From: a virus | IMG/VR virus record: IMGVR_UViG_3300036781_000823 | Coordinates: 1 to 41,025 of that record | Length of the DNA stretch: 41,025 nt | Direction: 5' to 3' (one strand) | Shown: positions 5,674 through 15,208 of the stretch, piece after piece | How positions within the stretch are numbered: the stretch's first letter is position 1 | Layout of the letters: each line of letters starts with the position of its first letter | Program-made: the position numbers and the translations under genes | Notes under the pieces: generated by a model | The model's input: the letters and a program-made list of their open reading frames with translations, nothing else | The model's database searches: none | Told to the model about the DNA's origin: nothing

Positions 5674-6601
5674 GCAAACCCCGCTGTGGGAGCGCGCCAA
5701 GGGCCGGTGGAAAGAAATCCTGCCGACCGTCGCCGGCATCGACGTGCGCCTGCTCGATGGCAAGCACCACCCATGCCCTCTCTGTGGCGGCACCGACCGC
5801 TGGCGCTACGACAATCGGGAGGGCTACGGCACCAGCATCTGCGGGCAGTGCGGCAGCAGGACCGGCCTGAAGCTGGTTATGGCGGTCAAAGGCTGGGAAT
5901 TTCGCGAAGCCGCTATCGAGATCGAAAAGATCATCGGCACGGGGCCGCCGACCGAGGAAGCCGAGCCCGCGGCCGCGATCGATGATGCCGCAAAATACCG
6001 CGAGGCACTGGCGCTGTGGCGGCAAGGCTCGCGCATCGCGCCGGGTGATCCCGTCGACAAATACCTCATCGGCCGATTGGGCAAATACGAGTCCACGCGA
6101 GCGCTCAGGATCATTCCCGAGACGCATTTCAGCGGGCGGAAAATGCCGGCCATGATCAGCGCTTATGTCGACCAGCACGGCGATCTCGCGGGCATCCAGC
6201 GCACGTTCCTGACCGCCGATGGCCGGAAGTACCCCGACCTTGAGGCCGACCGATGGAACACGGGCAAACTACCCGACGGCGGCGCGGTTCGTCTGGCCAA
6301 GCACGACAACGTGCTGGGCATTGCCGAGGGCGTGGAAACCGCGCTCAGCGCCACCGTGCTCTACGGCGTGCCGGTGTGGGCAGCGCTCAACGCAAACCGT
6401 CTCAGGGTCTGGCAACCGCCCCAAGGCGTGAGCAACGTCGTCATCTTCGGCGACGCCGATCGCAACAATGTCGGTCAGGCGGCGGCCTTCTCACTGGGCG
6501 AGCGGCTGGAGCGCGAAAAGATTACCACGCAGGTGATGATCCCGCCGGAGCCGGGCATGGACTGGAATGATGTTTTGAAACAGCAAAGGCCGGCAGCATG
6601 A
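5666..6601 (+). CDS. DNA primase-like protein (zinc finger + TOPRIM)
   Basis: This 311-residue protein has an N-terminal gp4-type zinc ribbon (Cys37/40 and 59/62, CPLCGG...CGQCG) and a TOPRIM domain. In the latter, the catalytic Glu lies in AEGVETALSA (about 221-224) and the DxD motif is FGDADRNN (263-265). This pairing is that of phage and conjugative-plasmid primases that prime DNA synthesis. No helicase core is fused. The separate SF2 helicase upstream and the DnaB-N-like protein suggest that the replicative helicase comes from the host. It is coupled to the next gene through an ATGA overlap. Confidence 0.9.
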   Translation: MPEQTPLWERAKGRWKEILPTVAGIDVRLLDGKHHPCPLCGGTDRWRYDNREGYGTSICGQCGSRTGLKLVMAVKGWEFREAAIEIEKIIGTGPPTEEAEPAAAIDDAAKYREALALWRQGSRIAPGDPVDKYLIGRLGKYESTRALRIIPETHFSGRKMPAMISAYVDQHGDLAGIQRTFLTADGRKYPDLEADRWNTGKLPDGGAVRLAKHDNVLGIAEGVETALSATVLYGVPVWAALNANRLRVWQPPQGVSNVVIFGDADRNNVGQAAAFSLGERLEREKITTQVMIPPEPGMDWNDVLKQQRPAA

Positions 6602-7809
6602 CCGTCGAACACGAATTCCGCGACCCCGGGGAGGTGCCGGCGCTCGACTGGATCGACAAGGATCTGATCGATGTCGACCCGACCTATCAGCGCGAGCTCG
6701 ATGCGGCCCGCGTGCAGCGCATCCTTGACTGGTTCGATTGGTCGAGCTTCGGCGCGCTGGTGGTGGCACCCAAGGAAGGCGGCCGGTTCAACTGCACCGA
6801 CGGGCAGCACCGGCTCGAGGCTGCCAAGCGCCACCCGCTGGTCAAACAGGTGCCGGGCGTCATCATCGCCAAGAGCGGCACGGTCGACGAGGCGGCGAAC
6901 TTCGTAGCGATCAACGCCAACCGGAAGAACGTCACGCCGCTGCAGCTCTATTGGGCCGAACTGGCGGCCGGCGATCCCGAGGCGGTGACGGTGGCCCAGG
7001 TGTGCGAGCGGGCTGGCGTGACGATCATCCGCGGCGCTGGCGGGACACCCAAGGCCAAGCCCGGCGAGACCGCTGCCATCGCCGCCGTGCGCGGTGTCGT
7101 CGGCAAGTACGGCGCCATGCGCGGCCGGCAGATGCTGGAGGTGCTGGGCAAGGCGCAGCTCGCGCCGATCACCGCCTTGCAGGTGCGCGCCGCTGAGCTG
7201 CTGCTGACCGATCCCGAATTCAAGGACGACGTGGAGCCCGAGGCGCTGACCGAGGCCATCGCCGGCCGCGGCCTGGTGCTGGAGGACGAGGCCCGGGCAT
7301 TCGCCGCCACGCACCGCCTGCCGCTGACGAGAGCGTTGGCGAGTGTATGGTTCAAGCGCACCAGGAAACGCCGGAAACCCGCAGCAGGGGTCGACGAGCC
7401 GAAGATCACCCGCGGAGATGCGCTGCGACGAGCGGAGGAACGCGAGGCACCTGAGATGGCGAAGGCTGAGCGATCTATGGCCGAGCGGCAGCAGGCAGTC
7501 GACACCCGTATCGCCAGCGTGGTGGCAGCCTTCGGCGCCACCCTTACGGAGGCGCGGATACTGGTCGAGCTGCTGTCAGGACGGCTTGCCACCAAGGAGG
7601 CACTTCACGCCGCGCTATATGGCGACGATCCCGGCGGCGGGCCGGAGATGAAGATCATTGACGTGCTCGTCTGCAAGCTCCGGCCCAAACTCGACGATCA
7701 CGGCATCACGGTGATGACCGTGCGCGGCATGGGCTATCAGCTCACCGGCGAAATGGTCCGCCGCACTGAGGCCGTTCTTCGGACTGACGAGAGGACGAAA
7801 GCGGCATGA
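6598..7809 (+). CDS. ParB-like domain fused to OmpR-type winged helix
   Basis: In this 403-residue protein, residues 15-110 form a ParB/sulfiredoxin-like fold with the signature DPTYQRE and DGQHRLEAAK (68-77), similar to the DUF6551 type found in phages. Residues 309-384 match the DNA-binding C-terminal domain of OmpR/PhoB regulators: LTEARILVELL, KEALHAALYG, KIIDVLVCKLRPKL, TVRGMGYQL. A basic linker (KRTRKRRK, 253-260) joins them. The ParB-like fold can act as a nucleotidase, nuclease or partition clamp; which applies is unknown. No receiver domain is present. It overlaps both neighbours by ATGA, so it belongs to the early operon. Confidence 0.8.
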   Translation: MTVEHEFRDPGEVPALDWIDKDLIDVDPTYQRELDAARVQRILDWFDWSSFGALVVAPKEGGRFNCTDGQHRLEAAKRHPLVKQVPGVIIAKSGTVDEAANFVAINANRKNVTPLQLYWAELAAGDPEAVTVAQVCERAGVTIIRGAGGTPKAKPGETAAIAAVRGVVGKYGAMRGRQMLEVLGKAQLAPITALQVRAAELLLTDPEFKDDVEPEALTEAIAGRGLVLEDEARAFAATHRLPLTRALASVWFKRTRKRRKPAAGVDEPKITRGDALRRAEEREAPEMAKAERSMAERQQAVDTRIASVVAAFGATLTEARILVELLSGRLATKEALHAALYGDDPGGGPEMKIIDVLVCKLRPKLDDHGITVMTVRGMGYQLTGEMVRRTEAVLRTDERTKAA

Positions 7810-9754: not shown

Positions 9755-9795
9755 CGGCGCCGGGAGTTGACCTCCTCTGGCGCCGAATTTGTTTT
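9755..9795. terminator. Inverted repeat between convergent genes, likely terminator
   Basis: CGGCGCC (9755-9761) pairs with GGCGCCG (9779-9785), with an inner GGAG/CTCC pairing, and is followed on the plus strand by AATTTGTTTT. It lies between the plus gene ending at 9689 and the minus gene ending at 9794, where a terminator is expected. A weaker hairpin GCTGG/CCAGC lies just before it (9732-9750). The remaining bases 9690-9754 hold no gene that I can see. Confidence 0.5.
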
Positions 9796-10300
9796 AGTCG
9801 GAACGCTTCACCGCCCGCTTTTTGGCCTTCGCCTCGCGCTCGGCCATGTCCCGCTCGTAGAGGGCGACACTCCCGGCGAGCTCACGGAGATTGGCCGGCA
9901 GCAGGCTGACCATTTCGGATTTGGGCTGGTGGATCACCAGCTCCATGGCCGCGAGTTGCGCAGCTTTAAGATGCCACGGCTTGGTGATCGTCTCGCCGTT
10001 CTCCAGCATCTGGTAGGTGCGGGCAGGCATCCCGATAGCCTCGGCCATCTGGACCTGGGTGATACGAAGCGATTTCCTCAGATCGAGCAGTTCCTGCTGG
10101 TCGGGCGTCATGTTGCTCCTCGCTATTGCGTCAGCTTCTCGGGCGAGAACTTCCCGTGCGGCGCTGATCCGATCAGCCTCCGTGTACCGGTAGACTCGCT
10201 GCGTCCCGTTGATGTCGAACGACCTTGAGAACGGGATGGTAGCCAAGGCTTCGTCAAAGGTCATCCCTCTGGCGGGCGTTGCGGTATTCAGGCTGGACAT
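9794..10300 (-). CDS. XRE-family HTH regulator (HigA/antitoxin-like)
   Basis: The 168-residue protein begins MSSLNTATPARGM at an ATG with a strong Shine-Dalgarno (AAAAGGAG, 7 bases before). The frame is open another 76 codons upstream, but that segment overlaps a structured leader and has no good start. Residues about 80-115 form an HTH (LRKSLRITQVQMAEAIGMPA then RTYQMLENGETI). The C-terminus is basic (KAKKRAVKRSD). Single HTH proteins of this kind are often antitoxins or autoregulators. No toxin ORF is evident beside it. Two dyads at its own promoter suggest negative autoregulation. Confidence 0.75.
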   Translation of the reverse strand: MSSLNTATPARGMTFDEALATIPFSRSFDINGTQRVYRYTEADRISAAREVLAREADAIARSNMTPDQQELLDLRKSLRITQVQMAEAIGMPARTYQMLENGETITKPWHLKAAQLAAMELVIHQPKSEMVSLLPANLRELAGSVALYERDMAEREAKAKKRAVKRSD

Positions 10301-10320
10301 GGTATTCTCCTTTTCACGGA

Positions 10321-10456
10321 GGAGGTGAGAGCCTTCTTTCCGGTGGGAGCCGGGCTTCCGCCCGACCCCCTTCTTCAGCGGCTGAGTGTCAGGGTCAGGG
10401 ACCAACCAAACCATCTGACATTCAGCGTGAACCGGAATTTCAGCGCTCTCACCTCC
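10321..10456 (-). promoter_or_regulatory. Structured mRNA leader with 12-bp long-range inverted repeat
   Basis: On the minus strand, the leader of the HTH gene starts near 10480. A near-perfect Shine-Dalgarno (AAAGGAGGT) is followed by AGAGC, and GGAGGTGAGAGC (10445-10456) is perfectly complementary to GCTCTCACCTCC (10321-10332). The second arm lies immediately before the HTH gene's own Shine-Dalgarno (10307-10314). Pairing would mask the first ribosome site and restructure the second. This looks like translational control. It is seen directly as sequence complementarity; the effect is inferred. Confidence 0.6.
10375..10443 (-). CDS. Possible 22-residue leader peptide (CTG start)
   Basis: Seven bases after the strong Shine-Dalgarno of the leader, a CTG opens a 22-codon frame (LKFRFTLNVRWFGWSLTL and on to LSR) ending in TGA. 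The spacing is ideal, and the peptide has a regular beta-strand-like alternation of hydrophobic and polar residues. The only weakness is the rare CTG initiator. Without it, the Shine-Dalgarno has no start codon at all. If translated, ribosomes would disrupt the 12-bp leader pairing. Confidence 0.35.
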   Translation of the reverse strand: MKFRFTLNVRWFGWSLTLTLSR

Positions 10457-10486
10457 TTTCGTCCGCCCCACTATCGGGGCACAATC

Positions 10487-10538
10487 TTTATCGCACACGC
10501 AAAGATTGCGTGCAAGCATAAAGCGCAATGATTGCGTG
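10487..10538 (-). promoter_or_regulatory. Autoregulated promoter with two dyad operators
   Basis: Reading the minus strand, TTGCAC (10510-10515), a 17-base spacer and GATAAA (10487-10492) form a promoter starting near 10480. The dyad CACGCAA-N3-TTGCGTG (10496-10512, perfect) fills the spacer. A second, slightly degenerate copy lies at 10522-10538, with centres 26 bases apart. An HTH protein binding here would shut off its own transcription. The protein-site match is inference. Confidence 0.65.
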
Positions 10539-10901
10539 AAATCGTATTCCAGTTTGAGGCGAGCGCTATGTCTCCGGCAAAGGTCGCGCTGAGCCGGCGA
10601 TTAAATGCACGTTGATCCGACGGCGCGAGCACCGGGTCACGCCTCAATTCAAATCGAAGCGGCGGCGTGGACGGACACGCACGAAACAGCAGCGCGGGAT
10701 AGTTGCCGGGTGCGGAGTTGGGGAGGCGGCGGACTTCGTCCGTGCAGCTAGTACCGGTCCCGTGCGGAGGGCGCTCCTCGGAAGGCCCGCTAGTCGGTAT
10801 CCAGCCCGGCCCGCTTCGATGTTCGTCACCCACCAGTAGCGTGCTGCTGGTCCTGCGCCGAGGTCGGCTGAAATCTCAGCTCTCCTCGGCTCGCAGCGTG
10901 C
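10539..10901. other. Non-coding stretch with nested hairpins
   Basis: No convincing gene was found. A 15-codon ORF with a GAGG Shine-Dalgarno (10568-10615, MSPAKVALSRR) is possible but unsupported. Near the right end, GCCGAGG (10857-10863) pairs with CCTCGGC (10884-10890), enclosing a second stem GCTGA/TCAGC (10867-10880) with an AATC loop. A competing stem GGCTCGC/GCGAGCC (10888-10894 and 10909-10915) shares three bases with it. There is no T-tract on either strand. It may end the minus gene at 10902 or be part of a small RNA. Confidence 0.4.
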
Positions 10902-13892: not shown

Positions 13893-15208
13893 TGAGCGCT
13901 TCCTCGCCGGGACGGACCCTGCGCCGCCTCGCCACGAAGGCGATGTCGGTATTTGCGCAGGGCCTGCACCTGACCGATCAGCGGCTCTACAGCTTCTTGG
14001 GAGGCGGTGAGACCGACGCCGGCGAGCGAGTTTCGGTCGAGATGGCGATGCAGCTCGACGTGGTCTGGGCCTGCGTCCGCCGCATCGCCGAGACCATCGC
14101 CACCCTGCCGCTGAACTTCTATAGCGCGAACCCCGACGGCATCGGGACGCTCGACACCGAGCACCCCCTCTACTTCATCCTGCACCACAGCCCGAACTAC
14201 GACATGACGGCGGTCAACTTCTGGGAGTGCATGGTCGGCTGCTACCTGCTGTGGGGTAACAGCTTCGCCGAGATCGTGCGTGGCGGCGACGGGCGGATCA
14301 CTTCGCTCAATCCGATGCGTCCTGACCGGGTGCAGGTTCGCCGCGATGCAAACGGCGATCTAATCTACATCTACAACTACCTTGGGCAGAGCTTCACCTT
14401 CACGGCCGAGCAGGTCTTTCACATTCGGGGCTTCTCCCTCGACGGCCTCATGGGCATGTCGCCAGTGCAGCAGGCTCGCCAGACGCTGGGCACCGCCCGT
14501 GCGACACAGCGTGCCCGGGCTTCGATCTTTCGCAATGGCATGCGGCCATCGGGCGTCCTGATCGCGCCGAAATATCTCAATGCCGCCCAGCGCGAGGAAA
14601 CGAAGCCTCTAATCGAGAAGTTCTCCGGCGCCGGCAACACCGGCAGCGTGCCGCTCCTTGAGGGGGGGTGGGACTTCAAGTCGCTAGCGATCTCGCCCGA
14701 GGATGCACAGTTCATCCAGACCGAAACGTTCCAGGTCGAGCAGATTTGCCGATGGTTCGACGTTCCGCCCGTGCTGGTCGGACATTCGGCTCAGACCACG
14801 TGGGGCTCCGGCATCGAGCAGATCATGCTGGGGTGGCTCACCTTCGGTCTGCGAGCGCACCTCAAGCGCATTGAGCAGGCGATCGGTAGCGGGCTGCTGA
14901 CGCCGCAGGAGCGCGGTCGCGGCTACTATGCCGAGTACGACGTCGACGGGCTGCTGCGTGGTGACAGCGCCAGCCGCGCAGACATGATGGTGAAGCTGGT
15001 CAACAACGGCCTGCGCACTCGCGACGAGATGCGCGGCAAGGACAATCTGGGCAAGCTTCCGGGCGGAGACATCCTCACCGTCGCGGCCAACCTGCTGCCC
15101 GCCACCGACATCGGCAAAGTCGCCAAGCTACCGAAGGACCGCAAGGTCGCGATCGGGGCGAGCGTGGACGCGCCGCCGGAAGAACCCACCAAGGGGACTG
15201 CATCATGA
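13892..15208 (+). CDS. Portal protein (HK97 family)
   Basis: The 438-residue protein shows the HK97 portal pattern: VSVEMAMQLDVVWACVRRIA near the start, then LPLNFYS, HPLYFILHHSPN, WECMVGCYLLWGNSF, LNPMRPDRVQV, VFHIRGFSLDG and the late PPVLVGHSAQTTWGSGIEQ. The dodecameric portal forms the DNA entry channel at one capsid vertex and docks TerL and the connector proteins. The length matches the family's usual 400-450. It is coupled by overlap to TerL upstream and the protease downstream. Confidence 0.95.
   Translation: MSASSPGRTLRRLATKAMSVFAQGLHLTDQRLYSFLGGGETDAGERVSVEMAMQLDVVWACVRRIAETIATLPLNFYSANPDGIGTLDTEHPLYFILHHSPNYDMTAVNFWECMVGCYLLWGNSFAEIVRGGDGRITSLNPMRPDRVQVRRDANGDLIYIYNYLGQSFTFTAEQVFHIRGFSLDGLMGMSPVQQARQTLGTARATQRARASIFRNGMRPSGVLIAPKYLNAAQREETKPLIEKFSGAGNTGSVPLLEGGWDFKSLAISPEDAQFIQTETFQVEQICRWFDVPPVLVGHSAQTTWGSGIEQIMLGWLTFGLRAHLKRIEQAIGSGLLTPQERGRGYYAEYDVDGLLRGDSASRADMMVKLVNNGLRTRDEMRGKDNLGKLPGGDILTVAANLLPATDIGKVAKLPKDRKVAIGASVDAPPEEPTKGTAS

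Follow-up and report, generated by a model that had tools for sequence, protein, structure and literature searches.

The HTH gene of this phage is preceded by a conserved RNA element that is probably a small gene in its own right, one of a new family of modules resembling type I toxin-antitoxin systems. The window, meaning the whole stretch of 41,025 nt that was analysed (IMG/VR record IMGVR_UViG_3300036781_000823, positions 1 to 41,025), contains every feature named by a sequence-only reading at the place given there, and all of these features lie on the minus strand. The 145-base element (10316..10460, minus strand; 131 bits against model R2) lies upstream of a gene for a 168-aa XRE/HTH_3 DNA-binding protein (9794..10300, minus strand, ATG at 10300), whose Shine-Dalgarno sequence AAGGAGA (SD2) lies at 10312-10306 on the same strand. 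A conserved ORF, a covarying structure, the position of an antisense site, the coupling to HTH genes in phages and the presence of tandem copies can all be seen directly in the sequences.

Architecture and covariation of the RNA element

A hairpin, GCCCC-GATAGT-GGGGC (10465..10480, minus strand), marks the probable start of the RNA, and many relatives carry a perfect hairpin of at least 6 bp at a similar place just 5′ of the first Shine-Dalgarno sequence (SD1), with different sequences. SD1 itself, AGGAGGTGAGAGC (10445..10457, minus strand), is very strong and forms the 5′ arm of a long-range stem, the 3′ arm of which is its exact complement, the anti-SD GCTCTCACCTCCT (10320..10332, minus strand), with 19 nt between the anti-SD and the HTH ATG. 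The sequence-only reading had described an exact complementarity of 12 bases between SD1 and sequence upstream of SD2; the pairing is indeed exact and is one base pair longer, at 13 bp. Allowing up to one mismatch, the 13-mer occurs in the window only at these two places, and none of 100 shuffles held two copies. Between the arms, the hairpin GGGGGUCGGGC-GGAA-GCCCGGCUCCC (10345..10370, minus strand) constitutes helix 4 of the structure, which is 97.3% paired and in which 7 of the 10 pairs show double changes in some relatives. The leader folds with -100.8 kcal/mol (z = -6.7), a stability equalled by none of 200 shuffles.

Covariation of the two arms, which had been proposed as a check of the pairing, was looked for in the relatives and is present. 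In alignment A2, 97.7% of the cells of the SD1/anti-SD helix are paired, and 7 of its 12 pairs show compensatory changes; among these, A-U has become G-C (in 7 and in 8 elements) and G-C has become U-A (in 5). The structure as a whole has 121 double-change cells, against 31 in shuffles, which ignore relatedness, and 12-31 in slid controls, which take it into account. Folding models give SD1 an accessibility of about 0% when the RNA is full-length; if the anti-SD arm is taken away, SD1 becomes open in most elements. The covarying stem and these models thus point to an SD hidden by mRNA structure, as is frequent, if not universal, in type I toxin mRNAs. A hammerhead-like core (CUGANGA) seen in some members is not conserved in the alignment and was dropped, and no Rfam family matches the element at gathering score.

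Distribution and gene context of the relatives

About 40 relatives were found, eight more of them in phages and the remainder in bacterial genomes, mostly of Rhizobiales. A pattern for the SD plus first codons led to phage L004, where an element of this layout is followed by a different HTH gene; a hairpin pattern then recovered copies in Rhizobiales genomes, and covariance models widened the set, adding L102, L103, L112, L126 and L171. The seven further phage copies came from another two scans of viral sequences and from a single phage record. Requiring both SD and anti-SD served to set aside pattern matches in unrelated GC-rich DNA. Homology of the HTH protein was abandoned as a route to relatives, as near homologues of the window protein were absent from viral and genome contigs and the matches in phages and plasmids were weak and partial. 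The window protein is related to the HTH protein of L169, the other copy with a CTG start (49% over 53 residues). Altogether 37 non-identical elements, the window included, were located with the ORF and both arms; they do not amount to 37 independent events, because some are closely related to one another or come from a single array.

Around Rhizobium smilacinae (locus L037), the element was detected in 15 of 395 genomes of the family, 4 of 297 of the order and 2 of 385 of the class, and in the phylum sample only in the genome already known; these counts are lower bounds because the filters were strict. The distribution among genomes is patchy. Tandem arrays that lack HTH genes, spaced at ~300-390 bp, occur in three genomes: G514 has four copies ~308 bp apart (C15:8669-9742), G283 has three and two (C8:4467-5272 and 14048-14590) and G349 has two (C9:97816-98271). 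Most hosts have a single copy, and where there are more they mostly stand in local tandem arrays, which speaks against a dispersed mobile repeat.

An HTH gene opened by an ATG lies 16-33 nt after the anti-SD in 9 of 9 phage copies and in L103, L120 and L127, and L171 also has an SD and an ATG at the HTH-start position. This arrangement is what would be expected of a leader-peptide device for the HTH gene, in which the anti-SD is rearranged when the CTG-start ORF is translated, and HTH translation is set in this way; the anti-SD moreover contains CUCC, complementary to GGAG-type SD2 sequences. Control of the HTH protein by leader translation was the proposal of the sequence-only reading, and it does not hold up well against the wider set. 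No HTH gene lies directly downstream in 28 of the 40 elements examined, and occupation of SD1 has a small and inconsistent effect on predicted SD2 accessibility (from 0.63 to 0.48 for the window), leaving SD2 about equally open in either state. Nor does such a device explain the conserved antisense promoter-like site described below. Because 28 of 40 copies are HTH-less, some of them in tandem arrays, the element is not simply an HTH leader and should have a function of its own; the leader model is an unlikely reading that we retain as a rival for the phage copies only.

Some further observations concern HTH-type genes around these loci. In other Rhizobiaceae, a motif search for HTH genes akin to the L120 protein located the gene in 6 of 30 loci, and among these six an upstream inverted repeat was seen only at L128, which is the L120 locus. 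The HTH gene and element of phage MW202613 (L158:6001-6216, plus strand) are unannotated, and CDSs are called there on the opposite strand. The window itself encodes another HTH-like protein (MQMATRLNVSASFISAVETGKKSPP...), preceded by a strong SD, close to the opposite phage end (38543-38859, plus strand), as well as a 403-aa protein in which a ParB-like region is fused to a C-terminal Trans_reg_C domain (6598-7809, plus strand).

A non-ATG ORF under coding constraint

In the window, the strong, near-consensus SD1 (10457-10445) has only a CTG at 10443 to serve, as had been noticed before, and this opens a 22-codon ORF (10375..10443, minus strand) for the candidate toxin-like peptide LKFRFTLNVRWFGWSLTLTLSR. 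An in-frame GTG at 10452 overlaps SD1, making it an unlikely start. The start is almost always a poor one among the relatives, with TTG in 28, GTG in 7, CTG in 2 and ATG in none of the 37 elements, and the most distant member, L171, has an ATG at the same place. The ORFs run to 21-25 codons, so that at the level of sequence the sense RNA encodes a small peptide (<60 aa) as type I systems do.

Coding constraint across relatives now supports the CTG-start ORF that was first proposed as a leader. For 24 dereplicated ORFs of equal layout, the BLOSUM excess is +1.00 in the sense frame, against -0.42 to +0.48 in the five other frames; stops are missing from the sense frame, whereas 67-925 stop-containing codon differences are met in the others. 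None of 100 column shuffles reached the sense-frame score, and gaps within the ORF in alignment A2 are, by inspection, multiples of three. On this sequence evidence the ORF is under frame-specific coding constraint. The predicted peptides are cationic (charge +3 to +7, GRAVY -0.2 to 0.9), and the majority are amphipathic with a strand-like rather than helical moment. Short and only mildly hydrophobic, with this strand-like periodicity, the candidate is unlike most known type I toxins, which are usually, though not universally, hydrophobic transmembrane peptides of alpha-helical form. No known protein family was matched in PHROGs or NCBIfam, searched with the window peptide, or in Pfam, searched with five members. 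L120 and L127, from the 2-Mb genome G307, are AT-rich members, and their peptides (LKPSKEFRLRIKFLSCQIEIVFKF and LRKPKYVRFQMKILCWHIELILKF) are by eye the closest to AapA1 of Helicobacter pylori.

A promoter-like site that reads back into the element

The feature that alters the interpretation most is an antisense promoter-like site that is conserved in sequence and position. A match to TTGNNN-N15-18-TANNNT on the opposite strand, with its -10 ending at most 16 nt from the anti-SD, is found in 30 of 37 elements and reads from beyond the anti-SD back into the element. Its consensus is TTGAAA-N16-TATTAT, often with an extended -10. On the same strand, no other 8-nt bin out to 270 nt holds matches in more than one element. 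The remaining 3′ flank over that distance has two isolated pattern matches, with two on its other strand, and the 5′ flank has a few isolated ones together with four sense-strand matches at the expected place of the sense promoter, 32-39 nt 5′ of SD1. The site is kept both in copies without a downstream HTH gene and in those where it overlaps the start of one. The window's own candidate for the antisense promoter (TTGCGG-N18-TATTCT with an extended -10, TGG; 10279..10308, plus strand) overlaps the HTH start codon. It scores no better than shuffles, while the site is strong in most relatives, and a stricter promoter scan of the window region returned no promoter on either strand, the sense one included. 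The argument for an antisense promoter in the window is therefore one of position and family rather than of its own score. No clear terminator was identified for the sense or the antisense RNA.

A very stable, covarying fold and the antisense orientation of the best conserved promoter-like site would also suit a structured regulatory RNA acting in trans from either strand, with the ORF incidental or secondary, and Bartonella Brt RNAs of similar layout have been proposed to act as a trans-acting sRNA plus riboswitch (PMC5387305). We think this improbable, since RNA structure by itself would not be expected to give frame-specific coding constraint, a frame free of stops and a start that keeps its position.

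The predicted sense promoter and its operator-like dyads

The sense promoter of the window (10487..10515, minus strand) is predicted to consist of a -35 TTGCAC (10515-10510), a 17-nt spacer and a -10 GATAAA (10492-10487), and in several relatives the best sense promoter-like site likewise ends ~32-39 nt 5′ of SD1, with a weak consensus. A promoter with a perfect CACGCAA-N3-TTGCGTG dyad in its spacer had been proposed here. The dyad, CACGCAA-TCT-TTGCGTG (10496..10512), is perfect and covers the end of the -35 as well as the spacer, which makes it a probable operator for the HTH protein; a pattern search places a second, imperfect copy with two mismatches at 10522..10538. With up to three mismatches the pattern is found three times in the window against 2.64 expected, so it is no commoner than chance, and what speaks for an operator is that the perfect copy lies inside the promoter. 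With dyads in the sense promoter region, the HTH gene is probably under its own operator, in keeping with the self-operators of the sequence-only reading.

Of the 13 HTH-linked copies, among which L171 is included, 10 have a dyad of at least 6 bp in the sense promoter region; of the 28 others, 5 do. The dyads of HTH-linked copies differ in sequence among copies, and some are simple A/T runs. Their excess would fit repressor autoregulation. The sense promoter regions of L004, L158, L167 and L168 have a common operator-like dyad (CGTACTCAGTACG, CATACTCAGTATG, CATACTGAGTATG), and the HTH proteins of these phages are alike.

A proposed type I toxin-antitoxin-like module

In the mechanism that we consider probable, the sense RNA would start at the 5′ hairpin and carry the very strong SD and a 21-25-codon ORF, with an almost always non-ATG start, whose product would be a cationic amphipathic peptide. 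As long as the RNA is full-length, the exact anti-SD at its 3′ end would lock the SD, so that the peptide would not be made, and loss of the 3′ end would expose the SD. The promoter on the opposite strand just past the anti-SD would give an antisense RNA covering the element, which may act as the antitoxin. In phages, the product of the XRE gene 16-33 nt downstream on the same strand probably represses the shared sense promoter through the operator dyad. Transcription from both promoters, translation and toxicity of the peptide, antisense control and operator binding are what we infer from the conserved features.

Self-silencing together with tandem duplication and a patchy distribution is the usual pattern of type I toxins. 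The element appears to fit type I logic in that its SD is locked and its start codon poor, its small peptide is cationic, a candidate promoter opposes it, and its copies are duplicated in tandem and patchily distributed. A conserved peptide, an antisense site and a locked SD are not in themselves proof of toxicity, and a small non-toxic peptide with some other target, its synthesis antisense-controlled, could be built in the same way; that usual toxin pattern speaks against this reading, which we hold to be quite improbable. Returning to the type I-like module, the HTH coupling means that the phage versions could be regulatory. More tentatively, the phage copies may constitute an undescribed three-part module, composed of a self-silenced toxin-like peptide RNA, an antisense promoter in the start region of the XRE repressor gene, and the repressor acting on the sense promoter. 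If this is so, expressing the repressor gene would physically oppose the firing of the antitoxin promoter and vice versa, and the repressor state of the phage would be wired to the toxin.

The element thus defines a compact RNA/peptide family, strongly supported by sequence, without a match in Rfam or, as far as tested, in Pfam, PHROGs and NCBIfam. No description of an earlier type I toxin-antitoxin family in Rhizobiales was found in open-licence papers, so a prior description is possible. The family offers named loci in culturable Rhizobiales where toxicity, antisense control and 5′-3′ folding can be tested directly, and its union with a repressor-like gene in phages leads one to ask whether the repressor state of the phage and a toxin are linked.

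Comparison with known systems

The peptide and RNA structure of hok/sok are unrelated to those of the element, and its antisense layout differs. What the two have in common is an mRNA that is inert by folding, with the SD sequestered by a downstream anti-SD (hok/sok as described in PMC6733600).

The nearest worked example is AapA/IsoA of Helicobacter pylori, which likewise combines a small cationic peptide, an mRNA with a 5′ stem-loop, a 3′ anti-SD that sequesters the SD and a cis-antisense RNA (PMC6733600), the antisense RNA of the element being a candidate. In AapA3/IsoA3, 5′-3′ pairing keeps the full-length mRNA inert, 3′ trimming activates it, and it is against this activated form that the antisense RNA is directed (PMC6733600). 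The aapA3 ORF contains the -10 box of IsoA3 (mutated positions A87 and A90; PMC6733600), whereas the candidate antisense promoter of the element lies beyond the anti-SD and not inside the toxin ORF. AapA1 is an alpha-helical transmembrane peptide (PMC8309996), in contrast to the strand-like periodicity of the element's peptide; the C-terminal KR of AapA is not kept in the element's peptides, and their starts are non-ATG. AapA loci as described have no HTH coupling, unlike the phage copies of the element. Scored against the peptide profile, the AapA1 stretch WKTLYLKISFLGCKVVVLLKR (sequence from PMC10537873) reached a value attained by 0.15% of full and 0.9% of class-preserving shuffles, and a resemblance beyond composition is at present a lead only. 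Three features argue against classing the element as AapA, namely where its antisense site lies, the strand-like periodicity of the peptide and the absence of the C-terminal KR.

The Brt RNAs of Bartonella are structured, multicopy RNAs of 194-203 nt with an XRE HTH gene (Trp) within 10-18 nt (PMC5387305). Their loci lie in a prophage-containing region, and attempts to delete Brt1 did not succeed (PMC5387305). The likeness consists in a structured RNA, a short gap and an XRE gene, which in the element is found downstream in the phage copies but not in 28 others. On plasmid pBGR3 of B. grahamii, the stretch L159:26475-26690 (plus strand), taken as the plasmid's Brt copy from the count and layout in PMC5387305, combines a 5′ hairpin with a long stem, GGGAGUAAAAG / CUUUUAACUCCC, that hides an SD-like sequence before an HTH gene. 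It differs from the element in having no ORF after the SD-like sequence and in its HTH protein. Model R2 did not match pBGR3, the one Brt copy examined, and Brt is therefore kept as an analogue rather than a relative. The Bartonella Brt/Trp loci could nevertheless be a remote or ORF-less branch of the three-part module design, and the element offers a testable angle on these unexplained loci.
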